Shown piece by piece: positions 3,646 through 64,000 of a DNA stretch of 64,000 nucleotides. The position numbers were made by a program, and so were the translations under genes. This DNA is from Streptomyces roseofulvus (lineage in GTDB: Bacteria > Actinomycetota > Actinomycetes > Streptomycetales > Streptomycetaceae). Numbering within the stretch: position 1 is the first letter of the stretch; each line of letters starts with the position of its first letter. Where the stretch lies: NCBI RefSeq assembly GCF_039534915.1, contig NZ_BAAAWE010000001.1, forward strand, positions 992,001-1,056,000, written 5' to 3'. The notes beneath the pieces were generated by a model, which saw nothing but the letters and a program-made list of their open reading frames with translations, had not been told where the DNA came from and did not search any database.

Positions 3646-5118
3646 CTAGCGCCAGGGCGGTCGGATGCCCAGGTGGCGGAGGGCCGCCACGGCGGCGCCC
3701 GCGCCGGACATGCCGTGGGCGCCGGGGCCCGGCGGGGTGGCGGCCGAGCAGAGATAGACGCCGGGGAGGCCGGTGGCGTACGGGTCGAGGGCGGGGCGCG
3801 CGCCGAGGACGAGCTGGGGGACGGTCTTGGCGCCGGTGAGGATGTCGCCGCCGGCGAAGTTCGGGTTGGCGGCGGCGAAGTCGGCGGGGCGGGTGACCCG
3901 CATGCCGACGATCCGGTCGCGGACGCCCGGGGCGAACTGTTCGAGGCGGGCCAGGATCACGTCGGTCGCGTCCCCGTCGTACCCGTGCGGCACGTGCGCG
4001 TACGTCCAGACCGGGTGGACGTCCCCCACCGAGCGGGAGGGGTCGGCGAGGTACTGCTGGCCCACCAGGACGAACGGCTGCTCCGGCATCCGGCCGTCCG
4101 TCACGTCCCGCTCGGCGCGGACCACCTCGGCGAGCGGTCCGCCCAGGTGGACGGTGCCGGCGCGGCGGGCCGGCTCCGCGCGCCAGGGCACGCCGCCCTC
4201 GACGGCGAGGTCCACCTTGAAGGCGCCGGGGCCGCGCCGGAAGCGGCGGTACGCGGCGGCCGTCCGGGGCGGCAGCAGGTCGCCGTAGACGCCGGCGACC
4301 TGCGCCGGGTCGAGGTCCAGCAGGGTGAGGTCGGCGGGCGGCAGCTGCGCGCGGTCGGTGATCCGGACGCCGGTCTCGATCCGGCCGCCGTGGGCGCGGA
4401 GCGCGGCCGCCAGGGCGTCGGTGATGGCCCGGGAGCCGCCCTCGGCGACGGCCCAGCCTGCGGCGTGCCCCGCGGTGAGGATGCCGAGCCCGATGGCGGA
4501 GCTGAACGGTTCGGTCAGCGGGCGGTACGCGTGGGCCGCGACGCCCGCCCACAGCGCGCGGGCGCCGGGGGTGCGGAAGAGCCGGGCCAGGGCCGCGGCG
4601 GGCAGCACGGTGGGCAGGCCGAAGCGGGCGAGCAGCAGAGGGTGGTCGGGGACGCGCAGCAGCGGGCCCATGACGTCCCCGGCGAGCGCCTCCCAGCGGC
4701 GTACGGAGGGGGCGAGCAGGGCCCGATAGCGGCCGGCGTCGGCGCCGAGGCCCTCGGCGGTCTCGTTGACCGAGCGGTGCAGGACGGCGGCGGTGCCGTC
4801 GTCGAGGGGGTGGGCGCAGTCGATCTCCGGGAGCCGCCAGCGCAGTCCGTACCGGTCCAGGCGGAGGTGACGGAGGGCGGGCGAGGCGACGGCGAGGGGG
4901 TGGACGGCCGAGCAGTGGTCGTGGAGCAGCCCGGGCAGGATCGCCTCGTCCGTGCGGGTGCCGCCGCCGATCCGGTCGGCGGCCTCCAGGACGGTGACCT
5001 CGACGCCGGCCTCGGCGAGCAGGGCGGCGGCCGCGAGCCCGTTGGGGCCCGCGCCGACGACGACGGCGGTCGGGGTGGTCCCGGCGGGGCGGGCGGGGCG
5101 CGGGCGCGTGCTGCTCAT
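3646..5118 (-). CDS. Phytoene-desaturase-like FAD-dependent oxidoreductase
   Basis: A 490-residue flavoprotein of the phytoene dehydrogenase / CrtI-like amine oxidase superfamily. The N-terminal dinucleotide-binding motif is AVVVGAGPNGLAAAALLAEA (residues about 18-37), followed by an acidic end of the second strand and IGGGTRTDE. The C-terminal FAD-contact segment is PGVYLCSAATPPGPGAHGMS (about 447-466). Members oxidise or isomerise hydrophobic substrates, but no other carotenoid gene (crtB, crtE) is nearby, so a carotenoid role is not supported. A second member of the same family lies at 41549-43114. The gene stands alone, convergent with LysR. The substrate is unknown. Confidence 0.85.
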   Translation of the reverse strand: MSSTRPRPARPAGTTPTAVVVGAGPNGLAAAALLAEAGVEVTVLEAADRIGGGTRTDEAILPGLLHDHCSAVHPLAVASPALRHLRLDRYGLRWRLPEIDCAHPLDDGTAAVLHRSVNETAEGLGADAGRYRALLAPSVRRWEALAGDVMGPLLRVPDHPLLLARFGLPTVLPAAALARLFRTPGARALWAGVAAHAYRPLTEPFSSAIGLGILTAGHAAGWAVAEGGSRAITDALAAALRAHGGRIETGVRITDRAQLPPADLTLLDLDPAQVAGVYGDLLPPRTAAAYRRFRRGPGAFKVDLAVEGGVPWRAEPARRAGTVHLGGPLAEVVRAERDVTDGRMPEQPFVLVGQQYLADPSRSVGDVHPVWTYAHVPHGYDGDATDVILARLEQFAPGVRDRIVGMRVTRPADFAAANPNFAGGDILTGAKTVPQLVLGARPALDPYATGLPGVYLCSAATPPGPGAHGMSGAGAAVAALRHLGIRPPWR

Positions 5119-5179
5119 GGGGCGAGTCTGCCGGGGCGGGCGCCGCGCCCGCGCACCGGGGCCCGCGACGGCGCGCCGG

Positions 5180-5812
5180 TCAGCCGGTGACGATGCCGGC
5201 CACCAGGTTGATCGCGGTGGCGAGGATGCTGGCGCCGAACACGTACGAGAGGAGGCAGTGGCGGAGGACGACGGCCCTGATCCCGGTGTCGGAGACGTTG
5301 GTGTCGGAGACCTGGTAGGTCATGCCGAGGTTGTAGGAGAAGTACAGGAAGTCGGTGTACCGGGGGCGGTCGCCGGAGTTGAAGTCGATGCCGCCCTCGG
5401 GCGGGCGGTAGTACAGGTACGCGTACCGGGTCGCGTACATGAGGTGGAGCGCCGCCCAGGCCATGAAGACGCCCCACAGGGCGGTCGCGGCGGCGGCGCG
5501 GCTGTAGCCGGAGTCGACGAGGAGCAGGGCGACGATGGCGACGAGTCCGCACAGGGCGGCCGTGACGACGGCCAGTTCCTCGACGACCGGCCGGAACTCC
5601 TCGCGCCGCAGGTTGCGGTGGGTGGTGGGCGCGTCCATCGGCCCCAGCACGATCCAGCCGGTGACGACGAAGACGGTCTCGGCGACGGCGATGCCGGAGA
5701 GGACGCCGAGGGCCGTGTCGGCGAGGGCGCCGGCGACGGCCCCGGCGGCGGCGCCGAGCAGGGCGGCGCCGGCGAGCCGGGGGACCGCGTACCGCCAGGA
5801 CCAGGTGGCCAT
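5180..5812 (-). CDS. DUF1345-family membrane protein
   Basis: A 210-residue integral membrane protein matching the DUF1345 pattern: about five hydrophobic helices plus the conserved segment around residues 140-170 ([40 protein letters not shown]). That segment is the family hallmark, with a YSYNLGxxYQ-like motif just before the last helices. It is the last gene of a tight minus-strand run after the DyP peroxidase and encapsulin genes, with a 4-nt gap to the encapsulin stop. That placement suggests co-expression and a possible membrane-side role for the compartment, but the function of DUF1345 proteins is not established. Confidence 0.85.
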
Positions 5813-5816
5813 GGCG

Positions 5817-6644
5817 TCATGCCTCCAGGACGACCACGGCCTCGTCGGTGTACGCGAAGAACGTCAGGGTCTCGTGGAGGTACAGCTCGACGGTGTCGGC
5901 GTCGTGCCGGGTGTAGCCGATGGCCACGTCCTGGCCGAGGTGCAGCGCGAAGTCGCCGCCGCGGGTGGAGAGGACGAAGCCGCCCCGGACGGCGGGGGCC
6001 CAGATCGGGGGGCCGTCGAGCATGCGGCCGAGGTGGGCGGCGATCGGATAGCCGTGGTCGGAGGTCTCGCTGACGGCCCGGTACTCGTCCGCGCCGAGGA
6101 GGAGCGCGTACGGGCCGTCCACGCCGGCCAGCCGCAGGGCGGTCAGGGCGCGGCTGACGGCGTCGGGGTAGTCGCGGGGTTCGGCGGGGAGCGCGACGGA
6201 CGGGTTGGAGGAGGCGGCGCGCAGGCCGCGGACGCCGGCGGCGTCGTAGCCGTCGAAGACGGTGCGGTCCTCGGCGAGGGCGAGGGTGCGGGCGGCGTCC
6301 TTGACGGGCTGCCAGTCGGAGTCCCTGGCGCCGCGTTCGACGTCGTCGACGGCGGAGCGGTCGACGGTGAAGGGGACGCGGAGCTCGACCAGCGGGCGGG
6401 CCTCGCGGAGCCGGGCGCGGACGCCGTGGACGGGTGCCTCGAGGTCGGTGAGGTGGCCGGTGCCGACGGCGGCGAGTCCGGCGCCGCCGGGGTCGGGCAT
6501 GTCCACGACGCGGCGGCCGGCGACGGTGCGGCGGAAGGTGCGGCGGGCCTCCTCCTCGATCTCGGCCCAGGCGGCGGGGGTGACGGGGGCGAGTTCGCGG
6601 TGCAGGTTGCCGGTGGTGGGGGGCGTGCCGGGGAGGCTGGTCAT
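5817..6644 (-). CDS. Family 1 encapsulin nanocompartment shell protein
   Basis: A 275-residue HK97-fold shell protein of the usual family 1 size. It shows the typical opening [20 protein letters not shown], the central segment [20 protein letters not shown], and a C-terminal shell segment [20 protein letters not shown]. Such proteins self-assemble into icosahedral cages of about 24 nm that load cargo through a short C-terminal peptide. The cargo is the gene immediately upstream, a DyP peroxidase carrying such a peptide. The start codon overlaps the peroxidase stop by ATGA (6641-6644), showing translational coupling. Role: sequestering peroxidase activity, probably for oxidative stress defence. 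Confidence 0.93.
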
Positions 6645-11036: not shown

Positions 11037-11202
11037 CTAGGTCGTTTCTTTCGGATCAGGCCGGATCAGGGAGCGGCGTCTGGTGCGTGCGCTCGCAAGG
11101 CGGAGGAGGGAGACAACGCGGAGCGTTGGCGACCGACGACAACGCCGCGAGGGTGCGTGCCAGGCGTCGCGAGCCCGGCATGATCCGAAAGAGACGGCCT
11201 AG
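11037..11202. mobile_element. MITE copy 1 (158 bp, CTAG target duplication)
   Basis: A 158-bp non-coding element (11041-11198) flanked by CTAG direct repeats (11037-11040 and 11199-11202). Its ends are imperfect terminal inverted repeats. The left end starts GTCGTTTCTTTCGGATCA and the right end, read inversely, GCCGTCTCTTTCGGATCA. A copy differing at one base lies at 53715-53872. It encodes no transposase, so it must be moved in trans, probably by an IS5-type enzyme given the CTAG target; that family link is inference. The right CTAG supplies the TAG stop codon of the convergent modBC gene. Confidence 0.85.
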
Positions 11203-32313: not shown

Positions 32314-33311
32314 TGGCGGGCGCGGGCGGGGCGCGGGAGACCGGCTTGCCGGCGGGGCGGCCGTCGGGGCTCGTCGGCAAGGAGATCGCGGGCTACCGGG
32401 TGGAGGCCGAGATCGGGCGCGGCGGGATGGCGGTCGTGTACCGGGCGCGGGACCTGCGGCTCGGCCGGACGGTGGCGCTGAAGCTGCTGGCCCCCGAGCT
32501 GGCCCGCAACGACACCTTCCGGAAGCGGTTCGCGCACGAGTCGCGGGTGGCGGCGTCGATCGACCACCCGCACATCGTGCCGGTCTTCGAGGCGGGCGAG
32601 ACGGAGGGGGTCCTGTACATCGCGATGCGGTACGTGGCGGGGCAGGACCTGGTGGCGCTGCTGGCCCGGGAGGGCCCGCTGCCGCCGGCGACGGCGGGCC
32701 GGATCGCGGCGCAGGTGGCGTCGGCGCTGGACGCGGCGCACGCGCACGACCTGGTGCACCGGGACGTGAAGCCGGGGAACATCCTGGTCGCGGAGGGCAC
32801 CGACAGGGAGCATCCGGAGCACGTCTACCTCACGGACTTCGGGCTGACGAAGAAGTCGCTGTCGCTGACCGGGTTCACGACGGTGGGCGAGTTCGTGGGG
32901 ACGCTGGACTACGTGGCGCCGGAGCAGATCTCGGGGAAGCCGGTGGACGGCCGCTGCGACGTGTACAGCCTCGCGTGCGTGGTCTTCGAGACGCTGTGCG
33001 GGGTGCCGCCGTTCCGCCGGGACACCGACTGGGCGGTGCTGTGGGCGCAGCAGTACGACCCTCCCCCGCCGCTGGCCGAGCACCGGCCGGGGCTGCCGGA
33101 GGCGGCGGACGCGGTCTTCGCGCGGGCGCTGGCGAAGACGCCGGAGGAGCGGTACGGGACGTGCCTGGAGTTCGTCGCGGAGCTGCGGGCGGCCCTCGCG
33201 CGCGTGCCGGGCGGTCCGGTCGCGGCCACGGGGACGGGACGGCGCGCGCCGGGTCCGCCGCCGGAGCCGCCGGGGTGGGCGCGGCCGGTGTTCCGGCGGC
33301 TCGGGGCGTAG
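32313..33311 (+). CDS. Soluble Hanks-type Ser/Thr protein kinase
   Basis: A 332-residue kinase. Motifs: glycine loop EIGRGGMAVVYRARD, catalytic Lys in VALKLL, HRDVKPGN, DFG, activation segment with several Ser/Thr (SLSLTGFTTVGEFVGT) and the APE-type APEQ. A Pro-rich C terminus follows the domain. Unlike PknB-type kinases there is no membrane helix or PASTA domain, so it is cytosolic. It is translationally coupled to the preceding accessory gene. Its likely targets are the FHA domains' partners in the operon. The TAG stop (33309-33311) abuts an internally deleted MITE. Confidence 0.93.
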   Translation: MAGAGGARETGLPAGRPSGLVGKEIAGYRVEAEIGRGGMAVVYRARDLRLGRTVALKLLAPELARNDTFRKRFAHESRVAASIDHPHIVPVFEAGETEGVLYIAMRYVAGQDLVALLAREGPLPPATAGRIAAQVASALDAAHAHDLVHRDVKPGNILVAEGTDREHPEHVYLTDFGLTKKSLSLTGFTTVGEFVGTLDYVAPEQISGKPVDGRCDVYSLACVVFETLCGVPPFRRDTDWAVLWAQQYDPPPPLAEHRPGLPEAADAVFARALAKTPEERYGTCLEFVAELRAALARVPGGPVAATGTGRRAPGPPPEPPGWARPVFRRLGA

Positions 33312-52075: not shown

Positions 52076-52834
52076 GTGCCGGTGGAGGAGCGCTGGAACG
52101 GCTCGGTCGTGCTGGAAGCCGGGCGGCTGCGGTTCCGGGGAAGGCTGGGGACGACACACGCCCACGCCCACGCGGCGGTGCAGCTGGTGATCGTACGGTC
52201 CGGCACCGTGGAACTGGCCGACCGCTACGGCGGGAGGCTCGCCGTCTCGGCGGCCGTCATCCCGTCCCGGGCCACACACTCCCTGCACGCCGAGGACGCC
52301 CAGGGGACGGTGGTCTACTACGACTCCGATTCGCGCTCGGGGCGGGCCCTGCGGTCACGCTTTCCCTGCGCGCCGGGCGATCGCGTCACGGACTGGGTGT
52401 CCGCCGCCGGGGCCGGGTGGTCGCCGGACGCGCCGGCCGGAGGGCGTACGGCCGCGGCTCCCCATCCGGCGGTCGGCCGCGCCGTCGACCGGGTCCGCTC
52501 CCGTCTCCACGGGCCGGTCTCCCTGGAGGAGGTGGCGACGGCGCTGCACCTCTCGCCCAGCCGGCTCGGGCACCTCTTCGCCGAGGAACTCGGGCTGCCC
52601 TTCCCGGCCTACGTGCGCTGGGCCCGGATCCGGCGGGCGATCGAGCTCGTGCGCGCGGGGGCGACGCTGACCCAGGCGGCGTGCGGTGCGGGCTTCTGCG
52701 ACAGCTCGCACCTCACGCGGGTCGTCCACGAGATGTTCGGCATGGCTCCCTCGCAGCTCCTCCGTGACGTCCGGTGGGAGCCGAGTCCGCAGCGGATCCG
52801 TCCAAGCGGCCCGGGGCGCGCGGGCGCACCCTGA
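52076..52834 (+). CDS. AraC-family transcriptional regulator
   Basis: A 252-residue protein. The N-terminal half is a cupin-like effector domain (HAHAHAAVQLVIVRSGTVEL). The C-terminal half (about 140-235) has the two HTHs of AraC regulators: RVRSRLHGPVSLEEVATALH, LSPSRLGHLFAEELGLPFPA, and AACGAGFCDSSHLTRVVHEM. GTG 52076 is chosen, with weak upstream purines, and GTG 52082 is possible. The membrane hydroxylase gene starts 4 nt after its stop and is likely cotranscribed. Confidence 0.9.
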   Translation: MPVEERWNGSVVLEAGRLRFRGRLGTTHAHAHAAVQLVIVRSGTVELADRYGGRLAVSAAVIPSRATHSLHAEDAQGTVVYYDSDSRSGRALRSRFPCAPGDRVTDWVSAAGAGWSPDAPAGGRTAAAPHPAVGRAVDRVRSRLHGPVSLEEVATALHLSPSRLGHLFAEELGLPFPAYVRWARIRRAIELVRAGATLTQAACGAGFCDSSHLTRVVHEMFGMAPSQLLRDVRWEPSPQRIRPSGPGRAGAP

Positions 52835-52838
52835 CGCC

Positions 52839-53714
52839 ATGGTCGGCAACCTCATCCGCTATGGATACGTCCCCTTTCTGCTGGTCGGCGTGAACGGCGC
52901 GGGGATCGCGCTCGTGGCCGCCGGCGCGTCGAAGGTGTGGCTGCTCGCCCTGCTCGGCGCCGCCGTGGCGGCGTCGTTCGCGGCCGAGCGCCTCCTTCCC
53001 TATGCCGTGGAGTGGAACGACCCCCTGGCCGATCGCCGGAGGGACGTCGTCCACGCGGTCGTGAACGAGGCGCTGATCCTCGGGAGCGTCGCGGCCCTGC
53101 CGGTGCTCGCCTCCGTCGTGACGGTCGTGGACGTGTGGCCCTCCTCGTGGCCGTTCGCCCTGCAGGTGCTGTCGGCGGTGCTGGTGGCCGATGCCGGGAT
53201 CACCCTGGTCCATTTCGCGAGCCACAAGGTGGGCCTGCTGTGGCGGTTCCACGCCGTGCACCACTCGGTGAAACGCTTCTACGGCTTCAACGGGCTGATG
53301 AAGCATCCGCTGCACCAGAGCGTGGAACTGGCCGCGGGTGTCGCTCCGCTGCTGGTCGCCGGCATGCCGGTGGACGTCGCGGCGGCCCTGTCCCTGGCGG
53401 TGGCCGTCCAGCTGCTCCTGCAGCACTCCAACGCCGACTACCGGGTCGGGCCCTTGCGGTACGTGCTGTCGCTCAACGAGGGTCACCGCTTCCACCACCT
53501 GAAGTGGGCCGGTGTCGGCGACGTCAACTTCGGTCTGTTCACGCTGGTGTGGGACCGGATGCTCGGCACGTACTGCTTCGACCCCGGCCGGCGCTTCTCC
53601 AGCGCGGATCTGGGCATCGCGGCCAAGCCCGGCTATCCGTCGGGCTATCTGGCCCAGTTGTCGGAACCGTTCCGCGCGCGGGGCGCGTGCGCCTCCGGAA
53701 CCGACGACGGCTAG
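52839..53714 (+). CDS. Sterol-desaturase/fatty-acid-hydroxylase superfamily membrane protein
   Basis: A 291-residue membrane protein with about four hydrophobic helices in the first 130 residues. It carries the three histidine boxes of the superfamily: HFASH, WRFHAVHHS and HRFHHLKW, which bind a diiron centre. Members hydroxylate or desaturate lipids or sterols. It is coupled to the AraC regulator. The TAG stop (53712-53714) lies within the CTAG of the MITE copy 2. Substrate is unknown. Confidence 0.9.
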   Translation: MVGNLIRYGYVPFLLVGVNGAGIALVAAGASKVWLLALLGAAVAASFAAERLLPYAVEWNDPLADRRRDVVHAVVNEALILGSVAALPVLASVVTVVDVWPSSWPFALQVLSAVLVADAGITLVHFASHKVGLLWRFHAVHHSVKRFYGFNGLMKHPLHQSVELAAGVAPLLVAGMPVDVAAALSLAVAVQLLLQHSNADYRVGPLRYVLSLNEGHRFHHLKWAGVGDVNFGLFTLVWDRMLGTYCFDPGRRFSSADLGIAAKPGYPSGYLAQLSEPFRARGACASGTDDG

Positions 53715-53876
53715 GTCGTTTCTTTCGGATCAGGCCGGATCAGGGAGCGGCGTCTGGTGCGTGCGCTCGCAAGGCGGAGGAGGGAGACAACGCGGAGCGT
53801 TGGCGACTGACGACAACGCCGCGAGGGTGCGTGCCAGGCGTCGCGAGCCCGGCATGATCCGAAAGAGACGGCCTAG
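53711..53876. mobile_element. MITE copy 2 (158 bp, CTAG target duplication)
   Basis: Element 53715-53872, flanked by CTAG (53711-53714 and 53873-53876). It differs from copy 1 (11041-11198) at a single position (GACTGACG instead of GACCGACG). Both terminal inverted repeats are conserved. It sits between the stop of the membrane hydroxylase and the stop of the NO synthase gene. No coding capacity. Confidence 0.88.
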
Positions 53877-55100
53877 TCAGCCGTGTCCGAAGGGGCAGCC
53901 GCCCCTGCCGCGGGCCCTGGCGTCGTCGTCGAGGTAGAAGTTCGGACGCTGGTCGGCGTCCTCGTAGTAGCGGTGGAAGACCGGGGTGATGCCGCCGGAG
54001 ACGGGGGGCACGATCCACGTCCAGTCGGCGGGGACGCCTCGGCCCTGCTTCTCCTCCCTGGCCAGGTGGGTCATGAAGTGCCGGGACTCGGTGTGGTGGT
54101 CGCTGATCCTGACGCCGGCCTCGGTGAACGAGTGCAGGACGGCGACGTTGAGTTCGACCAGGGCGCGGTCCCGCCAGAGGGTGGCCTCGCTGCCGGTGTC
54201 GAGGCCGAGGTGGTCGGCGATGACGGGCAGCAGGTCGTACCGGTCGGTGTCGACGAGGTTGCGGGCGCCGATCTCGGTGCCCATGTACCAGCCGTTGAAG
54301 GGCGCGAGGGGGTAGTCGACGCCGCCGATCCGCAGCCGCATGTTCGAGATCGCCGGGACGGCGTGCCAGCGGAGGCCGAGGTCGGCGAAGTCCGGGCGGT
54401 CGGGGTGCGTGAGGGGGACTTCGAGGACGAGGTCCCGGGGAACGTCGAACAGCCGGGGCCCGTCCCGGTCGGTCTCGATGACCCACGGCAGGACGTCCCA
54501 GGCCCCTCCGGGCGCCTGCCAGCCGAGGCGCTTCACGGCCTCCGTGAAGTCCGCGTACGCGGGGTCGCCGACGAGGGCTCCGTCGTCCTGCCGGTGACCG
54601 GCGTAGCGGATGAGCTGGTCGTTCCACACCCGCGGGGCCCGGCCGGCGGGAGTGTCGGGGGCGAAGACGGAGATGACCGGCCGGATGCGACCGCCGTTGG
54701 TGGCCTGGCGGAGGTGGTCGCACAGGTGCCGGTGCAGCTCGTCGGCGGTGGTGGCCCCGCGGCGGTCCAGGACGCGCAGGCTCTTCCAGTACAGCCGGCC
54801 GATGCACCGGCTGGAATTGCGCCAGGCGACGCGGGCGCCGAAGACGAGCTCGTCGGAGGTGTGGGTGTAGGTCCCGGTCTCGTCGATCTCCTCGCGTATC
54901 CGCCGCAGCCGTGTCGTGAGGTGGACGGGCTGGTCCGGATGCTCGCCGTGGTGGAGGCGTACGAACTCCTCCGCTTCGTCCGCGTCGGCCGCGCGGGGGT
55001 GCGGTCCGCCGGGCGGCTCGGGAAGGGGAGCCGGCAGGGCCGGGGCGCCGGCTGTGGTGTCGAGGCTGTAGATGCGCGCCAGAAGCGTTTCGGAGTTCAT
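53877..55100 (-). CDS. nos: Bacterial nitric oxide synthase (oxygenase domain)
   Basis: A 407-residue oxygenase-only NO synthase. The heme-ligand cysteine is Cys99 in WRNSSRCIGR. The arginine-binding Glu276 lies in NGWYMGTEIGARN, and other family marks are FAPDTPAGRAPRVWNDQLIR and WTWIVPPVSGGITPVFHRYY. There is no attached reductase domain, so a separate electron donor is required, as usual for bacteria. It converts arginine to citrulline and NO. The N terminus (residues 1-40) is a Pro/Ala-rich extension. A GAGGAAC site precedes the ATG at 55100. It is the last gene of a minus-strand run of lipid and amine-type enzymes. Confidence 0.96.
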   Translation of the reverse strand: MNSETLLARIYSLDTTAGAPALPAPLPEPPGGPHPRAADADEAEEFVRLHHGEHPDQPVHLTTRLRRIREEIDETGTYTHTSDELVFGARVAWRNSSRCIGRLYWKSLRVLDRRGATTADELHRHLCDHLRQATNGGRIRPVISVFAPDTPAGRAPRVWNDQLIRYAGHRQDDGALVGDPAYADFTEAVKRLGWQAPGGAWDVLPWVIETDRDGPRLFDVPRDLVLEVPLTHPDRPDFADLGLRWHAVPAISNMRLRIGGVDYPLAPFNGWYMGTEIGARNLVDTDRYDLLPVIADHLGLDTGSEATLWRDRALVELNVAVLHSFTEAGVRISDHHTESRHFMTHLAREEKQGRGVPADWTWIVPPVSGGITPVFHRYYEDADQRPNFYLDDDARARGRGGCPFGHG

Positions 55101-55288
55101 GGGTTCCTCGCGGGTGGTGCTCGGCTCCGTCAGCGGGCCGTGCGCAGGCGGGCTGGTGCGGGTGAGCGGTGAGCGTGACGCGATGGGGGACGCGGGCGCC
55201 CGGGCGGAGGGCATCGACGACGCCGGGGTGAGGTCGTCTGCCGCGCGGGCGCCCGCGCCGGCGGAGGGGGCCGGGCCGGCGGTGCCGG

Positions 55289-55948
55289 TCAGGCGACCGG
55301 TTCGCCGGACCGCGCCTGCCGGGCGATGGAGGTTCCGAACAGCTCGTCCCAGTACGGGGCCGAGATGCCGAAGCCCTTGGTGTCGTCGCGGAAGTGGTGG
55401 CGCATGTGGAGTGAGCGCAGGTGCCGCATGAGGCGGCTCCTGGGGGTGGCGAGGTGGAGGTAGAGGTGGAACAGGTCGTAGGTGAGGTAGCCGAAGGTGT
55501 AACCGGCGCCGAAGATCAGCGGCAGCGAACCGAGGCCGGAGGAGAGGTAGATCGTTCCCCCGACCATCGGGATGCTGAGGAGCGGGCTCAGGATGGAGCG
55601 GCGCGGGTCCGTCGGGTAGTCGTGGTGGATGCCGTGCAGGATGTAGTGCAGGCGTGCCCCGAAGCCCTTCTCGGGCTCGTAGTGGAGCACGATGCGGTGT
55701 CCCCAGTACTCCGACAGCGTCCACGTCACGTAGCCGGCGGCCGCCCATCCGGCCAGCTGCCAGCCGCCGGCCTCCCCGAGGGAGAGCCAGACGCAGACGG
55801 CGATGACCGGGGTGAACATCGCGACGGTGGTGACCGGGTGCACGTGGATCAGGTGATCGAGCCAGCGCGGACCGACGACGGCGGGCGCGGTGCCCCGCCG
55901 GACGGCGCCCTTGGAGGTGCCGGGGCGGGCGGGTGTCTCGGAGCTCAC
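55289..55948 (-). CDS. Fatty-acid hydroxylase-type membrane protein
   Basis: A 219-residue membrane protein of the sterol-desaturase/fatty-acid-hydroxylase superfamily. It has three or four hydrophobic helices and histidine boxes in WGHRIVLH, LHYILHGIHHDYP and LHMRHH, expected to bind diiron. It closely resembles fatty-acid 2-hydroxylase proteins by the HGIHHDYP motif. GTG 55948 has AAGGAG upstream and overlaps the preceding SDR stop (GTGA). It is separated from the downstream nos gene by 188 bp, a stretch with no other feature seen. Confidence 0.9.
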   Translation of the reverse strand: MSSETPARPGTSKGAVRRGTAPAVVGPRWLDHLIHVHPVTTVAMFTPVIAVCVWLSLGEAGGWQLAGWAAAGYVTWTLSEYWGHRIVLHYEPEKGFGARLHYILHGIHHDYPTDPRRSILSPLLSIPMVGGTIYLSSGLGSLPLIFGAGYTFGYLTYDLFHLYLHLATPRSRLMRHLRSLHMRHHFRDDTKGFGISAPYWDELFGTSIARQARSGEPVA

Positions 55949-56787
55949 GCCCCGGCTCCTTCCACGGTGGGTGCCTTCACCCGCGTCTCGTAGGCGACGC
56001 GGGCCTGGTAGTCGGTGGTGCGCAGCAGCTGGTCCGCCTTGAGGAAGCGGCCCATCGCGTCCCGCCAGGGCTGGGGCAGCAGGAACAGGGAGCGGGTGAC
56101 GGGGTTGGTCCAGCCGGGCACGTACCGGTTGTAGACGGGGCGACGGGCCGTGCGGAGGACGGACCGGGCGATGTCGTCCGGGGTGAGCAGCGGGACGAAG
56201 CGGCCCTTGCCGACGCCGGAGGTGAGTTCCGTCTGGGCGGGGATGGGCAGGATGATCGACAGGTCCACGCCGGACCCGCGCAGTTCGGCACGGACGCCCT
56301 CGGAGAGGCCGACGACGCCGTGCTTGGCGGCGGAGTAGGTGGCGCAGCCGGGCAGGCCGATCATGCCCACGGCGGAGACCATGTTGATGATGTGGCCCCG
56401 TCCGCGCCGGCGCATCGGGCCGATGGCGGTCTTCATGCCGTTGAGGGTGCCGAGGAGGTTGACGCCCAGCTGGTGGGCGGTGTCCTCGTCGGACTCCTTC
56501 TCGAAGGGGCCGACGATCATCTCGCCCGCGTTGTTGACGAAGACGTCGATCTCGCCGAGGTCGGCCTCGACCGCCTTCCAGAACGCCTGGACGCTGGCCG
56601 GGTCGGTGACGTCCAGCGGGTAGGCGCGGGCGCCGATGGCGGCGGCGGTCTTGGCGGCGAACTCGTGGTCGCGGGCGCCGATGGCCACCTTGGCGCCGGC
56701 GGCGACGAACTGCTCGGCGGTGGCGCGGCCGATGCCGCGGCTGCCGCCGGTGATGGCGACGATCTTGTTGCGCAGGTCCCTGGGCAC
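55945..56787 (-). CDS. Short-chain dehydrogenase/reductase
   Basis: A 280-residue classical SDR. Cofactor motif AITGGSRGIGRATAEQFVAA, NNAG in VNNAGEMIVG, catalytic Ser in NMVSAVG and YxxxK in YSAAKHG. A C-terminal extension with LPQPWRDAMGRFLKADQLLR could embed in the membrane. GGAGG precedes the GTG at 56787. It lies in the nos-linked run. Confidence 0.92.
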   Translation of the reverse strand: MPRDLRNKIVAITGGSRGIGRATAEQFVAAGAKVAIGARDHEFAAKTAAAIGARAYPLDVTDPASVQAFWKAVEADLGEIDVFVNNAGEMIVGPFEKESDEDTAHQLGVNLLGTLNGMKTAIGPMRRRGRGHIINMVSAVGMIGLPGCATYSAAKHGVVGLSEGVRAELRGSGVDLSIILPIPAQTELTSGVGKGRFVPLLTPDDIARSVLRTARRPVYNRYVPGWTNPVTRSLFLLPQPWRDAMGRFLKADQLLRTTDYQARVAYETRVKAPTVEGAGA

Positions 56788-56854
56788 GGTGGAAGCCTCC
56801 AGAAGGGGTGGTGGTTTCGGGCTGTGTCGGACGAGGACGCGGAAGGCGCGGTCG

Positions 56855-57349
56855 TCAGCGTGCGTCCGCCGCCGCCGACGCGCCCACCGGTTCGGCCTCG
56901 GACGCGGTGAGGGTGATGTGCTCACCCAGCAGACCGCGCAGGATGAGGCTGATCGCCTCGATGAGCGCCTGGCAGGCGATCGGGTCGATGATCGCGGCGA
57001 GGCTGGGCATGCCGAGGTCGAAGCGGGCGGTGAACCGGACGGTGACCGCGTCGTCGTCGTGGCTGTGGACGGTCCAGGCGCCGTCGAACTGGTCGAAGTC
57101 GCCGTCGGTCTGGGTGAATTCGATGGTCAGAGCGGCCGCGTCGACGCGGTCGCGTTCGGACCAGCACAGGATGCCGTTGCGGAAGTTCACCGACCAGTCC
57201 GAGTCCAGGGTGTCGCCGCCGGTGTCGGTGACCTTCACCTCGCGCACGGCGTCGGTGTACTGGGGGTAGGCGGCGAAGTCCCGCAGCCGTTCGAAGACGG
57301 CCGGGGCGGTCGCGTCGGGTACGAGGGCGTCGAGGGTCACCTCGGGCAT
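56855..57349 (-). CDS. SRPBCC (polyketide-cyclase/START-like) protein
   Basis: A 164-residue helix-grip fold protein: [39 protein letters not shown] and [20 protein letters not shown]. This is the coenzyme Q-binding/aromatase-type pattern. Members bind hydrophobic molecules or catalyse cyclisation or dehydration. It starts 1 nt after the aminotransferase stop, showing tight coupling. Confidence 0.88.
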
Positions 57350-57350
57350 G

Positions 57351-58661
57351 TCAGCATCTCCCCTTCGTGGAGGCGGTGGTGCGGGCCAGGGCGGTGGCCG
57401 CGGTGGTGAAGGCGCGGGTGATCCAGTCCAGGTCGGCGGGCGTGAGCACGGCCGGCGGGGTCAGGCGTACGACGCGGTGGGCGTTCAGGGAGTGGTTGAC
57501 CAGCAGCCCCGACTCCAGGAGGCGCAGGACGAGTTCGCCGGCGGCGCCCTCGTCGCACAGCTCGATGCCGAGCAGCAGGCCGCGACCCCGGATGTCGACC
57601 ACCGCCCCTCCGAGCAGCGGCGCCAGCGCCGAGCGGAGGCGGTCCATCAGGTCCTCGCCGAGGGTGCGGGCCCGCTCCACCAGGTCCTCGTCCCGGATCG
57701 CGGCGACGGCGGCCGCGGCGGCGGCCATCGCGACGGGAGAGGCGGCGAAGGTGGAGGTGTGCAGGAACGGGTCCTTGTCGAACGGCGCGTACGCCTGCGG
57801 GGTGGCGACCGCGGCGGCGACCGGGATCACGCCGCCGCTGAGGTTCTTGCCGACCAGCAGCACGTCCGGCCGCACGTCCTCGGTGTCGGCGCCCCACCAG
57901 GTGCCGAGACGGCCGAGGCCGGTCTGGATCTCGTCGAGGACGAACATCGCCCCGTGTTCGGCGCACAGCCGCTGCACGTGTGCGAGGTAGCCGGGCGGTG
58001 GCAGGACCACGCCGCCCTCGCCCTGCACCGGTTCGAGGATGACGCAGGCCGGAGCGCCGCCGGCGAGTGCCCGCTCGAGGGCGTCGGCGTCGCCGTAGGG
58101 AACGTGTTCGGCGGGCAGCAACGGCCGGAACGGGTCCTGGTAGAGGGGTTTGGCGGTGACGGCGAGCGCGCCGGTGGTCTTGCCGTGGTAGCCGCCGGTC
58201 GCGGAGATCAGCCGGTGCCTGCCGTGCGCGCGGGCCAGTTTGATCGCGGTCTCGGTCGCCTCGGCGCCGGAGTTGACGAAGTGGACCCGTTCCAGGCCGG
58301 GAGGCGTGACGGCGGCGAGCGCGGCCGCCGCGGTGGCAGCGACCGGCTCCAGGAGCAGCCGGGTGGCCATCGGATGGCGGCGGATCTGCTCGACGACGGC
58401 GTCCACCACGCGGGGGTGGCGGTGGCCGAGGAGGAAGACCCCGTACCCGCCACAGTCCAGGTACTCCTTCCCGTCCGCGTCCCACACCCGGCTGCCCTCG
58501 GAGGCGACCTCCATGGCGGCGCCGGTCAGCGAGGCCAGGCGGGCCCGGCCCTTGCTCAGGTGGCGGCGGTAGACGCCCAGCACCTCGGCGGCCGACGCGG
58601 CGGCGGCGGCCGGGGACGCGGTGGTGGCGGGGGGCGGGGCCGGGATCGTCAGCTCGCTCAT
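57351..58661 (-). CDS. Class III PLP-dependent aminotransferase
   Basis: A 436-residue enzyme. It has [40 protein letters not shown], the Asp of [12 protein letters not shown] and the PLP lysine in [14 protein letters not shown]. The pattern is ornithine/acetylornithine or omega-amine type. It could convert a terminal aldehyde into a primary amine. It overlaps the upstream thioester-reductase-like gene by ATGA (58658-58661), which fits a paired reductase and transaminase reaction. Confidence 0.93.
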
Positions 58662-59734
58662 GCGGGCACCTGCTCCGCCGCGCGCACCGGCTGCGCGGCG
58701 CGGCGGACCATGCCCCTGGTGCGGGCCATGTAGGCGACCGACGCCCGCAGCGCGGACTCCAGCTCGCCGGCGCTCAGGGCTTCCGGTATCCCGTCGATGT
58801 GGCCGAGGCTGGTGGGGAACACATGGCCGTGGGCGAACAGCGCCGTCATCGCGAGCATGTCGTCGAAGCGGCGGCGCGCCCGGGGGTGCAGGTTGGCGAT
58901 GAAGACCGGCCGGATCAGCCGGTCGACCATCTCCGGGCCGACGATGCGGGGACGCGCCGCCGTCAGGCCCAGTTCGTCGGCGGTGTCGTGGATGACCCGC
59001 AGCGTGCACTCGGTCCGCAGGGCGCTGTCGCCCGCGGTGACCCAGACCTCGCCGTCCCGCCGGCCCTGACGGACGAGGCCGGCGATGGTGGCGGCCACGA
59101 CGTCCTGCGGGACGAAGTCGACGGGCGAGTCGGCCGGCACCGGGACCAGCGGAAGGAGCCCGCGCAGCAGTCCGTGGATGACGCCGTGCATGCCCTGGAA
59201 CGCGGAGATCGCACCGGTGACGGCGTCCCCGATCACCACCGACGGCCGGACGATCACCGCGGGTACGCCCGACGACCGGACGACGTCCTCCCCGGCGCGC
59301 TTGGAGTCCAGGTAGTCCTCCGGCCGCGCGGTGGCGTCCCCGTGGTCCTGGCCGAGCTGCGCCCGCGTCAGGTCGGTGCGGTCCACGAAGGCGGTGGACA
59401 CGTGGTACAGCACGGCGTCCGCGTCGGCGGCGAGCCGGGTCATCTGCCGGGTGCCCGCCGTGTTGAGCGCGTGGGCGGCCTCCGCGCCGCTGGAGAAGCC
59501 CGTGAGGGCCGCGCAGTGCACGATCGCGTCGACCCGCGCGGCGAGGCGCCGGTACGTGTCGGCGTCCAGACCGAGGCGCGGCGCGGTCAGGTCGCCGGCC
59601 AGCTGCTCGTCGGCGCCGGCCACCGGCGTGCGGTGGGTCAGGGCGATGGTGCGGCAGTCGGTCAGCCGGGGCAGCAGCGCGCTGCCCACGACACCGGACG
59701 CGCCGGTGAGAAGGACGGTGGGATGGCTGGGCAC
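58658..59734 (-). CDS. Thioester-reductase-like NAD(P)-dependent SDR
   Basis: A 358-residue extended SDR with cofactor motif VLLTGASGVVGSALLPRL, VDAIVHCAALTGFSSGA, STAFVD and an active YLDSK. The pattern resembles the terminal reductase (NAD_binding_4) domain that releases acyl thioesters as aldehydes. AGAGGTG precedes the GTG at 59734. It directly precedes the class III aminotransferase with overlapping codons. Together they could form an amine from an acyl-CoA or acyl-ACP, as in TamH of tambjamine synthesis, where both functions are in one protein. Confidence 0.85.
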   Translation of the reverse strand: MPSHPTVLLTGASGVVGSALLPRLTDCRTIALTHRTPVAGADEQLAGDLTAPRLGLDADTYRRLAARVDAIVHCAALTGFSSGAEAAHALNTAGTRQMTRLAADADAVLYHVSTAFVDRTDLTRAQLGQDHGDATARPEDYLDSKRAGEDVVRSSGVPAVIVRPSVVIGDAVTGAISAFQGMHGVIHGLLRGLLPLVPVPADSPVDFVPQDVVAATIAGLVRQGRRDGEVWVTAGDSALRTECTLRVIHDTADELGLTAARPRIVGPEMVDRLIRPVFIANLHPRARRRFDDMLAMTALFAHGHVFPTSLGHIDGIPEALSAGELESALRASVAYMARTRGMVRRAAQPVRAAEQVPA

Positions 59735-59832
59735 AGTCGAGCACCTCTCGAACAGGTCAGCGGGCGTATGGGGGTCGAAGGCGGGCGGCAGCCGTGGGGA
59801 ACGGCATGGCACGGCCGGGCGCCTCGAAGCCC

Positions 59833-60966
59833 CTAGGGGATGCGCAGGGGGGCGCGGCCGCTGAAGTACTCGGCCAGCGGGGCCGCCATGCGCGTCCGGG
59901 ACGGCGGGTGGAACGCCAGGGCGCGGCAGGCGGAGTTGAGGTACGCGATGTCGCCGGAGCCGATGAACGCCATGCCGCCCAGCGCTTCCACGCACAGCGA
60001 CAGGACCCGGTTGATCGCGTCCTGTGCGGCGTACCGACAGATCAGGGACCGCGACAGGGTGTCCTGCGTGACGCCGGCCGTCGCCACGTCCGCGGCGAGA
60101 CCTTCCAGCGCGAGGGCGACGGATTCGACGCAGGCCACCGCTTCGGCGGCGACGGCGCTGTCCGCGTGGGGGTTGCCCAGCGTGCGCTCGACCAGGGCGG
60201 AGGCGGCGCCGAGGTAGCCGGCCGTCATCAGACCCTCGAACCACACGAAGCCGACGGTCTGCAGCTGGTCCAGGCGCCCGTCCGCGGTGACGTCCGTGCG
60301 CACCAGCAGTTCGGCCGGCACCTCGACGTCGTCCAGGACGACCTCGTCGCTCTCGGCGCCCGCCAGGATCGGGCTGCCCCAGAACGGCCTGACGGACAGC
60401 CCCGGCGCCTCGGCGGGGATCAGGGCGATGGCCAGCCGGTCCTTTCCGTCCGGGCCGGGCAGGGGCAGGGAGGCGGTGAGCAGGTTCATGGAGCGGGCGA
60501 GGCTGCACGGCTTCTTGGAACCGCTCAGGAACACCTTGTCGCCCTCGGTGCGGGCGGTCAGGGACGGATGGAGGATGCCCTGGCCGGTGCGCCCCTCGGC
60601 GAAGCCCGAGGCGAGCAGCAGATCGTCCTTGGCGATGGCGGCGAGGAGCAGCCACTCCATGCCGCCGCCGGTGGCCGCCGCCTCGACCAGGGACGCCACC
60701 GAGAAGTGGTGCATGGTGGTCGCCACGGCCAGGGACGGGGAGCGCGAGCCGATCGCCCGCTGCACCCGCAGGGCGGTCAGCAGATCCGCGCCGCGGCCGC
60801 CGTGCTCGGCGGGCACCAGGAGGCCGGGACCGCCGGCGTCGCGGAACAGCCGCACCCCCGGGCTGTCGACGGCCTCCAGATCGGCCAGCGGCAGCCCGGC
60901 CAGGCGCTGGTCCAGGCCCGGCAGCACTTCCTCGACGACGGTACGTTCACGCTCCAGAAACCGCAT
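59833..60966 (-). CDS. Divergent acyl-CoA-dehydrogenase-fold flavoprotein
   Basis: A 377-residue ACAD-fold protein. N-terminal part: FLERERTVVEEVLPGLDQRL, GLLVPAEHGGRGADLLTALR. FAD region: LLASGFAEGRTGQGILHPSL, then DKVFLSGSKKPCSLARSMN. C-terminal helices end GDIAYLNSACRALAFHPPSR. The usual TxPxxGSD and EGTxxI segments are not present, so the catalytic Glu cannot be placed. It may act as an acyl-ACP dehydrogenase or as a flavin monooxygenase-like member of the fold. The ATG at 60966 follows a GGGGGGAC stretch. It opens the run of cluster genes. Confidence 0.82.
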   Translation of the reverse strand: MRFLERERTVVEEVLPGLDQRLAGLPLADLEAVDSPGVRLFRDAGGPGLLVPAEHGGRGADLLTALRVQRAIGSRSPSLAVATTMHHFSVASLVEAAATGGGMEWLLLAAIAKDDLLLASGFAEGRTGQGILHPSLTARTEGDKVFLSGSKKPCSLARSMNLLTASLPLPGPDGKDRLAIALIPAEAPGLSVRPFWGSPILAGAESDEVVLDDVEVPAELLVRTDVTADGRLDQLQTVGFVWFEGLMTAGYLGAASALVERTLGNPHADSAVAAEAVACVESVALALEGLAADVATAGVTQDTLSRSLICRYAAQDAINRVLSLCVEALGGMAFIGSGDIAYLNSACRALAFHPPSRTRMAAPLAEYFSGRAPLRIP

Positions 60967-61071
60967 GGACGGGTCCCCCCACCTGGTAGCTCGACACATG
61001 TCGCGCGCTCGGGGCGCCGGGCGGATCTCCGCCCGGCGCCCCGACGGCACGGCAACACGCTATGAGCCGGT

Positions 61072-61100
61072 GATGCAGCGCCCGTGCAGTGGACCGTCAA
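61072..61100 (-). promoter_or_regulatory. Candidate promoter of the nos-linked run
   Basis: On the minus strand TTGACG (61095-61100) and TGCATC (61072-61077) are separated by 17 nt, about 110 nt before the ACAD-fold gene. The -10 match is weak. Confidence 0.35.
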
Positions 61101-61140
61101 GTTCCGCTCATGAGTTCGACATGATCCCCCTGGGGGTGCG

Positions 61141-63402
61141 TCAGTCGTCGAGACCGATCTTCCGGTGCAGGCGCGCGAGCGGTCGTGGCGCCCACCAGTT
61201 GGCACGGCCGGCCAGGCGCATGAACGCCGGGACCAGGATGCCGCGCACCAGGGTGGCGTCGACGATCACGGCGAGCGCGAGGCCGACGCCGAGGAGCTTG
61301 AGCGGGGTCAGGGACGAGGTGGCGAAGGCCAGCAGCACGGTCGCGACGAGCGCGGCGGCCGCGGTGACGAGCCGGCCGGTCCGCTCCAGGCCCCAGGCGA
61401 CGGCGGAGACGTTGTCGCCGGTGCGGTGGTACTCCTCCTTGATCCTCGACAGGAGGAAGACCTCGTAGTCCATGGACAGTCCGAAGGCGACGCAGAACAT
61501 CAGGATCGGTGTGTCGATGTCGAGCATGCCGGTGACGGTGAAGTCGCCGACCAGCCAGCGCAGGTGCCCGTCCTGGAAGACGTACACCATCGCCCCGAAC
61601 GTCGCGGTGAGACTGAGCAGGTTCAGCACGATCGCCTTGACCGGGATGAGGAGGCTGCCGGTGAACAGGAAGAGCAGCACCGTCGTGGACAGGGCGATGA
61701 TGCCGAGCGCCCAGGGCAGCTTGTCCCCGAGGGTGGCCTTGGAGTCCACCAGGAGCGCCGCCTGTCCGCCGACGAGCACGGTGTCCGGCGCGGGCTCCGC
61801 GCGCAGCGTCTCGACGAGGTCCATGCCCCGCTCGGAGTAGGGCTCGGTGTCGGAGACCACCGACAGCCAGGTGCCCTTGTCCGCCTTGAACCGCTCGCTG
61901 GCGGGGCCGGGCGGGGCGATCCGGGCGCCTTCGCTGTACGAGCCGGTCAGCGCGTCGACGCGGGTGATGCCGGGGACGGTGGACAGCTGCTCGGCGTACT
62001 CGGCCACCTTGCCCGCCGACGCGGCCGGGTCGATGTCCGGCAGGACCACGTTCAGCGGTGAGCCCTCCCGGTTGTCGAACTCCTCGCGCAGCACCTGGGC
62101 ACCCTGGTACGCCGGGGAGGAGGCGGGCAGGACCCGGTCGTCGCTGTCGCCGAACTCGGCCCGCAGGAAGGGCAGTCCGAGCGCCACCAGGACGGCCGCG
62201 ACCGTGAGGGCGAACGGCAGCGGCCGACGCATGACCGCCATGGCCAGCTTGTGCCAGAAGCCCTCCGTGTCGGTGCGCGCCGCGGTCGCCCTGCGGCCGC
62301 GGCGGAAGAGGCGCCGGACGTCGAGGGCGTCGACGCGGTGGCCGAGCACGGCCAGCAGCGCCGGCAGCACGATGACCGATCCGAGTGCGGCGAGGACCAC
62401 GACGGCGATGCCGGAGTAGGCGAAGGACCGCAGGTGGTACATGGGGAAGACGAGCATCGCCGAGAGCGACAGGGCGACGGTCAGGGCCGAGAACAGCACG
62501 GTGCGCCCGGCGGTGCGCACGGACTCGCCGACGGCCTCGTGGACGGTGCGGCCCCGGGCCAGTTCCTCGCGGTAGCGCGTGACGATGAACAGGCTGTAGT
62601 CGATCGCGAGACCGAGGCCGAGGGCGGTGGTGATGTTGACGGAGAACACCGAGACCTGGACGACCATGTCCAGCAGCCGCAGGACGACGAACGAGCCGAT
62701 CACCGCGAGGATGCCGACGGCGAGCGGGGTGCTCGCCGCGACCACGCTGCCGAACACCAGCAGCAGAATGATCAGTACGAGCGGTCCGGACAGCAGCTCG
62801 GCCCTGGTGAGGTCTTCCTCGCTGCGCTTCTCGATCTCCATGCGCACGGCGGTCACGCCGGTCGCGGTCACCTTCAGCGCACCCTGCTCGCCGACCACGT
62901 CGGGCACGATCCGTGCCGCGGCCTTGCGGACCTCGTCCTCGTCACCGGCGAGGCGGACCATGATCAGGCCGGTGCGCCCGTCCTTGGAGCGCAGCGTGGG
63001 CGGCTTGTCCAGCGTCCAGTAGGACGCCGCCTGCACCACGCCCGGCTCCTTGGCGAGGCGGTCGGTCAGCGCGGTGGCGTCGGCGCCGACATCGGGGCTG
63101 TCGATGCTCCTGCCGGCGGCGGCGATGAACACCAGGTGGGGGGAGCCGCCTTCGAAGCGGTTGTTGAGCAGTTCGTCCGCGCGGGCCGACTCGGAGGCCG
63201 GGACGGTGATGCCGCCCTCCGACAGGCGGCTCTCCACGTCGGAGCCGAACGGCACCGCGACGATCAGCGCCACCATGGTGACCAACAGGACGGCCAGTCG
63301 GCGCTTCGCCAGCCAGCGGCCCAGTGCGGCCAGACCCTTCGGCGGAGCGGGTGGTGCGGCTTGCGGCGGCGTCTGGCTGCGGACGGTGGACTGGGAAGCC
63401 AC
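61141..63402 (-). CDS. MMPL/RND-family lipid transporter
   Basis: A 753-residue RND-type transporter with twelve predicted helices. Two repeated halves each have a large extracellular loop (about 60-205 and 440-560) followed by clustered helices. The signature ALGLGLAIDYSLFIVTRYRE in the first half and CVAFGLSMDYEVFLLSRIKE in the second carry the conserved Asp-Tyr pair used for proton coupling. MMPL proteins export lipids and small hydrophobic compounds. AGGAGG lies before the GTG at 63402. Placed upstream of the cluster, it is a candidate exporter for its product. Confidence 0.93.
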   Translation of the reverse strand: MASQSTVRSQTPPQAAPPAPPKGLAALGRWLAKRRLAVLLVTMVALIVAVPFGSDVESRLSEGGITVPASESARADELLNNRFEGGSPHLVFIAAAGRSIDSPDVGADATALTDRLAKEPGVVQAASYWTLDKPPTLRSKDGRTGLIMVRLAGDEDEVRKAAARIVPDVVGEQGALKVTATGVTAVRMEIEKRSEEDLTRAELLSGPLVLIILLLVFGSVVAASTPLAVGILAVIGSFVVLRLLDMVVQVSVFSVNITTALGLGLAIDYSLFIVTRYREELARGRTVHEAVGESVRTAGRTVLFSALTVALSLSAMLVFPMYHLRSFAYSGIAVVVLAALGSVIVLPALLAVLGHRVDALDVRRLFRRGRRATAARTDTEGFWHKLAMAVMRRPLPFALTVAAVLVALGLPFLRAEFGDSDDRVLPASSPAYQGAQVLREEFDNREGSPLNVVLPDIDPAASAGKVAEYAEQLSTVPGITRVDALTGSYSEGARIAPPGPASERFKADKGTWLSVVSDTEPYSERGMDLVETLRAEPAPDTVLVGGQAALLVDSKATLGDKLPWALGIIALSTTVLLFLFTGSLLIPVKAIVLNLLSLTATFGAMVYVFQDGHLRWLVGDFTVTGMLDIDTPILMFCVAFGLSMDYEVFLLSRIKEEYHRTGDNVSAVAWGLERTGRLVTAAAALVATVLLAFATSSLTPLKLLGVGLALAVIVDATLVRGILVPAFMRLAGRANWWAPRPLARLHRKIGLDD

Positions 63403-63583
63403 GCCTCCTCCTAGGAGGTGAGTTGAGGGAAGCGGCCCGGTGGGCGCGCACGAAAGGGATCGAGGGACGGGGGAAAGAGGGGCCGGGGCGCCGCACAGGG
63501 CGGTGCCGGGCGTCAGCGTAGGAACGGCCGCTGCAACAGCCCGGCAGGGCAGATGCAGGGGACATGCAGGTGCGGCGCCGAGT

Positions 63584-64000
63584 TCACCGCAGGCTCTCCT
63601 TCAGAGCGGCCGGGGCGTGGTGCTCGTCCTGAGAGGGTGGCCGGGCCGGGAGGCGTACCTCGGCGTGGAGTCCGCCGCCGGGAGCCTCCTGGAGCAGGAT
63701 GTCGCCGTCGTTGACCCGCGCCAGGCTGGCGGCGATGGCCAGGCCCAGGCCGGAGCCCTCCCCGGTGGCGGCGTTGGCCCCGCGCCAGAACCGGTCGCAC
63801 GCGCGGGCCCGTTCGGCGGCGGTCATGCCGGGGCCGGAGTCGGCGCACTGCACGGCCACCATCGCGGCGTCCTCGACGAGGCGGACGCGGACGGCCGTGC
63901 CGGCCGGCGCCGCGCGCACCGCGTTGTCGAGGAACACGTCGAGGATCTGGTCCACGGTGCCGGCGACCGCCGACGCCACGAGCTCCTCCTCGCCCTCGAC
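63584..64000 (-). CDS. Sensor histidine kinase, C-terminal part
   Basis: The frame enters from the right edge, and only 138 residues are visible. They form the HATPase_c domain: N-box VDQILDVFLDNAVRAAPAGT, G1 box DSGPGMTAAERARACDRFWR and G2 box GSGLGLAIAASLARVNDGDI. The end is Pro/Ser-rich. A two-component regulator gene is expected just outside the window. It is 181 bp upstream of the MMPL gene on the same strand; that gap shows a GCAGATGCAGGGGACATGCAG repeat but no gene. Confidence 0.9.
   Translation of the reverse strand, partial: VEGEEELVASAVAGTVDQILDVFLDNAVRAAPAGTAVRVRLVEDAAMVAVQCADSGPGMTAAERARACDRFWRGANAATGEGSGLGLAIAASLARVNDGDILLQEAPGGGLHAEVRLPARPPSQDEHHAPAALKESLR

Follow-up and report, generated by a model that had tools for sequence, protein, structure and literature searches.

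A minus-strand gene run ending in a nitric oxide synthase in Streptomyces roseofulvus: a candidate locus for lipid N-nitrosohydroxylamines

Results

A run of eight genes, all of them intact and all on the minus strand, occupies positions 63402 to 53877 of a 64,000-nucleotide stretch of the Streptomyces roseofulvus genome and ends with a gene for a nitric oxide synthase (NOS). This whole stretch, hereafter the window, covers positions 992001-1056000 of the 8.2-Mb single-contig genome (G000). In order, the run encodes an MMPL transporter (61141-63402; Pfam MMPL, 252.7 bits), a flavoprotein of the acyl-CoA dehydrogenase (ACAD) fold (59833-60966; two weak Pfam ACAD matches), a thioester-reductase-like NAD_binding_4 protein (TR; 58658-59734; Pfam, 131.6 bits, with NCBIfam support), a class III aminotransferase (AT; 57351-58661; Pfam, 296.7 bits), an SRPBCC protein (56855-57349; Pfam Polyketide_cyc, 70.6 bits), a short-chain dehydrogenase (SDR2; 55945-56787; Pfam adh_short, 155.9 bits), a fatty acid hydroxylase (FAH; 55289-55948; Pfam FA_hydroxylase, 61.2 bits, which we take to be a membrane di-iron family) and the oxygenase domain of the NOS (53877-55100; Pfam NO_synthase, 513.6 bits). 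These Pfam matches and the absence of internal stop codons bear out the genes, the order and the coordinates given in an earlier reading of the letters alone (the sequence-only reading). The run is also near-continuous, as that reading held, and its mention of several overlapping codons was slightly generous: the only overlaps are two of 4 nt each (TR/AT and SDR2/FAH), and the NOS lies 188 nt beyond FAH. The other spacings are 174 nt (MMPL/ACAD), 98 nt (ACAD/TR), 1 nt (AT/SRPBCC) and 67 nt (SRPBCC/SDR2).

The ratio of nonsynonymous to synonymous substitution rates (dN/dS) was 0.15-0.33 against the related stretches L036/L151, for which six of the eight genes were compared, and 0.12-0.37 against L037 and L041; therefore, the genes look still constrained by purifying selection. 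A simple scan of positions 53600-64000 returned no terminator-like sites (1.2 were expected from shuffled sequences) and a promoter scan of the run region found nothing, both scans being uninformative in GC-rich DNA. In agreement with the sequence-only reading, inspection by eye of crude gene calls, made for the window and for 20 kb further upstream, showed no nonribosomal peptide synthetase (NRPS), polyketide synthase (PKS) or acyl-CoA ligase; no profile search for them was made. The top solved-structure matches of TR are PKS/NRPS-type reductase domains, and the nearest solved chains to AT are putrescine aminotransferases.

Six loci from Streptomyces (L036-L041), all close, and one from Nonomuraea (L042), more distant, came up when genome contigs were searched with TR; L042 has the core and a flavin reductase gene and gave no match for FAH, SDR2 or NOS. 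Four of the six (L037, L038, L040 and L041) carry the genes from ACAD through NOS in the same order, with NOS identities of 75-83%. The other two (L036 and L039) meet a contig edge after TR or inside AT; their NOSs probably lie on a separate contig of each genome (L151 and L153), and both carry the NOS label in the ACAD tree described below. MMPL is 88-97% identical in L036-L039 and L041 and has no match in stretches L069 or L155. Because the gene order recurs in other Streptomyces, it is not a product of chance. L037 and L038 are identical within the cluster, so the independent cases are fewer than the counts given here.

FAH relatives with at least 72% identity were detected in 8 of 392 genomes (G000, G238, G017, G157, G164, G373, G096 and G286), at 72-96% in the seven besides G000, and four further matches reached 40-41%. 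G238 is probably the L036 genome, as judged by identity, and G157 and G017 probably correspond to the L040 and L039 genomes. FAH is followed by NOS in G000, G238, G017, G157, G164 and G373. A NOS gene stands after FAH in all eight fetched stretches that hold both FAH and SDR2, the latter counted at no fewer than 150 aligned residues and more than 60% identity, and L153, with FAH and NOS at a contig end, adds one case. Among the loci classified, SDR2 at this threshold is confined to NOS-type loci. The functional link between NOS and the run proposed in the sequence-only reading is thus supported, with NOS kept in every fetched stretch that has SDR2 and FAH, but two loci with FAH, ACAD and flavin reductase genes (in G096 and G286) have no NOS, and their genomes gave no NOS match at all. 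NOS without the run is common, as for any NOS: in the genus sample, 48 of 199 genomes have a NOS and 56 have an ACAD homologue, and few of those with a NOS have the run. In the two loci that lack NOS (L070 and L154), about 57 residues of the window-type TR remain, SDR2 is a fragment in L070 and was not found in L154, AT and SRPBCC near the ACAD are distant copies (33-38%), and distant TR copies lie next door. We read these loci as decayed or rearranged, although, given the arrangement that they share, they may represent a working variant.

No window-type cluster was seen outside Streptomyces in the limited samples. ACAD matched at E<=1e-60 in 3 of 296 phylum genomes (G000, another Streptomyces and G661, where the 20 kb around the ACAD held no other cluster gene), and AT matched at E<=1e-120 in 7 of 296 class genomes, among which the G133 neighbourhood alone was inspected. 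ACAD relatives with 50% and 44% identity were observed on the Nostoc plasmids NZ_CP040277.1 and NZ_CP117766.1.

The NOS spans positions 7-359 of the 362 in the NO_synthase profile; it aligns along the chains of solved NOS structures, with RCIGR and WYMGTEIG retained. Its tree has 37 rows, composed of 29 fetched NOS loci minus the duplicates L110, L112 and L115, the two NOSs of the window genome, eight other cluster NOSs and L162; NOSs of the genus sample without a fetched locus were left out. The nine cluster NOSs come together in a single group (support 91/85; 92% of bootstrap trees); the second NOS of G000 (C1:7574998-7576047, L005) falls in a different clade and has a different gene setting. 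Next to the cluster group come three NOSs with a cytochrome P450 gene alongside (G026, G003 and G138); those of G003 and G138 are also near very large frames that resemble NRPS genes by eye. Five of the eight other NOSs of the wider clade (L163-L167) have no P450 or NRPS by eye. No P450 match was obtained with Pfam among the eight run genes or the kinase upstream of them, and none was noticed in the wider surroundings, which were checked by eye only. The natural reading of the cluster NOS is that of a dedicated biosynthetic copy. NOS matches in two pieces each, possibly frameshifted, were recorded at G109:C1:9088379-9089521 and G113:C126:4881-5941.

The ACAD-fold protein was placed among its relatives by gene context. 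We classified 51 ACAD loci (the window, L036-L042, L069-L108 and L154-L156), which include 40 ACAD places of the genus sample fetched as 12-20 kb stretches, weaker places being left out. The presence of other genes was scored by tblastn at E<=1e-5, and some of the matches are distant copies. AT was present in 45 loci and SRPBCC, which also occurs in most of the azoxy-type loci, in 41; flavin reductase had a match in 34 loci and TR in 30. Genes of the VlmA, VlmO and VlmB types, as known from aliphatic azoxy clusters, were found near the ACAD in many of these loci (at least one in 30 of the 51, at least two in 29 and all three in 12); NOS was found in seven, and no locus combined NOS with a Vlm-type gene. 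The VlmA-type query carries PF09924, the domain used by the azodyrecin authors, and the VlmO and VlmB labels rest on place and description, with no Pfam match and one query protein each. The VlmA-type gene gave no tblastn match in the 20-kb stretch of the window or in any NOS-type locus, and VlmO and VlmB gave none near the cluster or anywhere in genome G000. The remaining 14 loci have neither NOS nor Vlm-type genes, two of them (L036 and L039) because the contig ends. Other arrangements of the core were also observed. In L072, the same core is accompanied by a formyltransferase-domain gene (5084-5974, minus strand), its own MMPL gene and a two-component pair, and the product is perhaps an N-formyl-N-hydroxy lipid. 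A further use of the ACAD family is seen in L071, L077 and L089, where the ACAD lies downstream of a P450-like gene (by eye), joined in L071 and L077 by ketosynthase-like genes and by distant copies of AT and TR. Such varied use means that the core does not fix the product by itself.

The two Pfam scores of the ACAD-fold protein, 24.1 and 22.5 bits, are under the curated cut-offs (33.3 and 22.9). In a single-sequence search, its best solved match was 3m9v, which we take to be KijD3; a search with a 25-row profile (alignment A2) returned, in order, DszC, glutaryl-CoA dehydrogenase, 3m9v/4kcf, other dehydrogenases and DnmZ. At residue 244, presumably where IVD- and PigA-type dehydrogenases have their base, 37 of 50 ACAD relatives carry Glu, 12 carry Gln and one carries Gly; because of this mixture, we dropped the catalytic Glu244 as a discriminator between dehydrogenases and N-hydroxylases. 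An AlphaFold model built from a seven-row alignment was too poor for use (mean pLDDT 62.4). In a tree of 50 ACADs (L038 left out; root not known), the NOS-type ACADs share one clade (100/100) with those of the two loci that lack NOS, and the Vlm-type loci are spread over several other branches. The window ACAD thus belongs to the same protein family as the ACADs of the Vlm-type loci, the VlmH sequence itself being outside this comparison. The simplest story is that the ancestor of the NOS-type ACADs was of the azoxy type or a shared one that formed hydroxylamines.

A flavin reductase gene, confirmed with Pfam on the L038 copy, lies between SRPBCC and SDR2 in the NOS-type relatives L037, L038, L040, L041, L069 and L155. 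The window and L151 have lost this gene by deletion. Its 67-bp scar in the window (56788-56854, minus strand; aligned with L151, L037 and L040) still matches its last bases. Six Flavin_Reduct matches occur elsewhere in G000, and another cellular flavin reductase could serve the window ACAD. With a flavin reductase as partner, a monooxygenase suits the ACAD-fold protein better than a dehydrogenase.

Upstream of the run, a sensor histidine kinase gene, present with its 3′ part (63584-64000, minus strand; Pfam HATPase_c), leaves the window, and a response regulator gene follows just beyond the window edge (stretch L004). A kinase homologue is also found upstream of the run in L036-L039 and L041, and the two genes are likely the control pair of the run. 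On the other side, a 166-bp element resembling a miniature inverted-repeat transposable element (53711-53876) starts directly after the NOS stop codon and has no counterpart there in L151. A second 166-bp copy lies at 11037-11202, both with near-perfect 22-base inverted ends, CTAGG[CT]CGT[CT]TCTTTCGGATCA, and a third, weaker copy of the end lies at 33308. An OlsE-like fatty acid hydroxylase gene (52836-53714, plus strand; NCBIfam OlsE score below the cut-off), preceded by an AraC-like regulator gene (52076-52834, plus strand; by eye), faces the NOS. The OlsE-like gene was rejected as a part of the cluster: it faces the NOS in L151, is apart in L069 and has no match in L037-L041.

Discussion

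According to the azodyrecin proposal, as given in excerpts of its source, the dehydrogenase Ady2 forms an aldehyde, Ady4 converts it into an amine, the two-component flavin monooxygenase Ady3/Ady10 (VlmH/VlmR-like) forms the hydroxylamine, and the VlmA-like Ady7 adds alanine from tRNA (PMC9379638). VlmO then forms the hydrazine that VlmB oxidises, in the excerpted account of PMC11705231. The run resembles the aliphatic azoxy clusters (valanimycin vlm, azodyrecin ady and KA57-A azx) in the proposed aldehyde, amine and hydroxylamine steps, and genes for the ACAD-fold protein, AT, SRPBCC and flavin reductase are common to Vlm-type and NOS-type loci. It differs in that it has no VlmA-, VlmO- or VlmB-type gene and has NOS, SDR2 and FAH instead, and in that the flavin reductase gene of the window is deleted. 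The steps that we assign to TR, AT and the ACAD-fold protein follow the azodyrecin proposal. TR would draw a fatty acyl thioester out of primary metabolism and reduce it to an aldehyde, AT would convert the aldehyde into an alkylamine, and the ACAD-fold flavoprotein, with a flavin reductase, would oxidise the alkylamine to an alkylhydroxylamine. The reductase-then-aminotransferase logic of fatty amine formation that the sequence-only reading recognized is therefore retained. Because azoxy-type genes and flavin reductases accompany the ACAD family, we propose that this protein is better read as an amine N-hydroxylase (VlmH/Ady3-like) than as an acyl desaturase. An alkylhydroxylamine is a probable product of the core.

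With arginine as substrate, the NOS would produce NO, an oxidised form of which would nitrosate the hydroxylamine nitrogen, unaided or by means of a further protein. In this way, NOS-derived NO would take the place of the aminoacyl-tRNA branch and lead to an alkyl N-nitrosohydroxylamine (a diazeniumdiolate, nitrosoxacin-like). FAH and SDR2 would oxidise the chain, for which we propose hydroxylation by FAH and tailoring by SDR2, and MMPL, likely the product exporter, would export the product. We are highly confident that the NOS is dedicated to this pathway. The chances seem evenly balanced that the product of the operon is a lipid diazeniumdiolate, namely an alkyl N-nitrosohydroxylamine, with every chemical step predicted from genes. 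Only tentatively do we regard the run as a NOS-dependent branch of alkylhydroxylamine biosynthesis, in which NOS, FAH and SDR2 replace the tRNA-dependent genes for N-N bond formation and yield chain-oxidised lipid N-nitrosohydroxylamines.

The nitrosoxacins have a long-chain structure, and to our knowledge no gene cluster for them is known. They are N-nitrosohydroxylamines, the product class predicted for the run, and excerpts of two papers cite them as 5-lipoxygenase inhibitors (PMC5878181; PMC7898861). In L-alanosine (aln) biosynthesis, the excerpted sources ascribe N-hydroxylation to the ACAD-like AlnG (PMC7347517) and describe NO as the precursor of the diazeniumdiolate (PMC10831120). By these partial descriptions, the likeness lies in an ACAD-like enzyme for hydroxylamine formation combined with an NO-derived diazeniumdiolate; the substrate of that pathway differs, being a carrier-bound amino acid and not a fatty amine, and its NO comes from nitrate/nitrite-type reductases and not from a NOS. 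A dedicated bacterial NOS in a biosynthetic locus is shared with the clusters for thaxtomin, rufomycin, lajollamycin and 8-azaguanine. In the last of these, NO-derived N-nitrosation involves a bacterial NOS, according to excerpts of PMC7109123, so that the N-N bond likewise comes from NO, whereas the amine nitrosated is that of a pyrimidine. A NOS combined with a VlmH-type core was not described among the matches listed in the open-licence PMC literature, subscription journals being outside this scope, and the available parts of a NOS-guided mining paper make no mention of the combination.

We infer, as the sequence-only reading had suggested, that N-nitrosation is the likely use of NO. The same core and NOS would also fit a pathway in which the core yields an alkylhydroxylamine or a derived nitroso, nitro or oxime compound and NO is used otherwise, for nitrosation of another amine, C-nitrosation or nitration, the last being a known use of NO in other clusters (excerpts of PMC10831120). 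However, the nitration clusters differ in combining a P450 with an NRPS or PKS, and the nitrating P450 of known NOS clusters was not seen here; moreover, on chemical grounds, the hydroxylamine nitrogen would be a strong nucleophile close at hand. We consider such another use of NO unlikely.

The sequence-only reading had compared the run with the formation of the tambjamine tail, and the tambjamine and prodiginine alkylamine genes do share a thioester reductase and a class III aminotransferase in sequence. Under that model, the ACAD would desaturate the acyl chain, TR and AT would give an unsaturated alkylamine, and NO would nitrosate it or act in regulation. The ACAD fold, the presence of RedW and PigA among the weak NCBIfam matches and Glu244 all favour it. 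However, TamH is a transaminase-reductase fusion, according to excerpts of PMC9594044, and the run has separate TR and AT genes. The Gln found at residue 244 in 12 of the 50 relatives counts against a desaturase because Gln is not expected where a base is required. In addition, the ACAD family sits with Vlm-type genes and flavin reductases, and no pyrrole genes were noticed. The tambjamine model therefore lacks support, and we regard it as improbable. Least probable of all is that the NOS is a bystander or a stress or signalling gene behind an operon whose product, an alkylamine or hydroxylamine lipid, is formed without NO. For this reading speak the frequency of NOS genes in the genus, the 188-nt gap before this one and the lack of P450 and NRPS neighbours, by eye, at most of the other wider-clade NOSs; against it speak the second, distant NOS of the genome and the cluster NOSs themselves, which fall together in the tree and remain next to FAH in nine stretches.

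Several points weigh against the proposal that the run makes an N-nitrosohydroxylamine. The product and the enzyme activities are predicted from the gene content, and the roles of SRPBCC, SDR2 and FAH are guesses. Monooxygenases and dehydrogenases are mixed among the matches of the ACAD-fold protein, the sequence of which does not decide its role; the window copy keeps Glu244, and its membership in the VlmH/Ady3/AlnG type rests on gene context and not on sequence comparison. Support for the group of cluster NOSs is moderate, 188 nt separate FAH from the NOS, and the flavin reductase gene has been lost from the window and L151. G096 and G286 have FAH and ACAD with no NOS, and the 14 ACAD loci with neither NOS nor Vlm-type genes indicate that the core can serve other products. 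Finally, G373 carries the NOS cluster and also VlmO- and VlmB-like genes on another contig; the exclusivity of the two gene sets thus holds per locus and not per genome.

Conclusions

If the proposal is true, the run would bring a lipid class into the small set of metabolites for which NO is a known building block and would tie a NOS to the nitrosation of a hydroxylamine. It would also provide a genetic handle on, and a gene basis for, long-chain N-nitrosohydroxylamines of the nitrosoxacin kind, which are metal chelators. One alkylhydroxylamine core would then serve different N-N endings.

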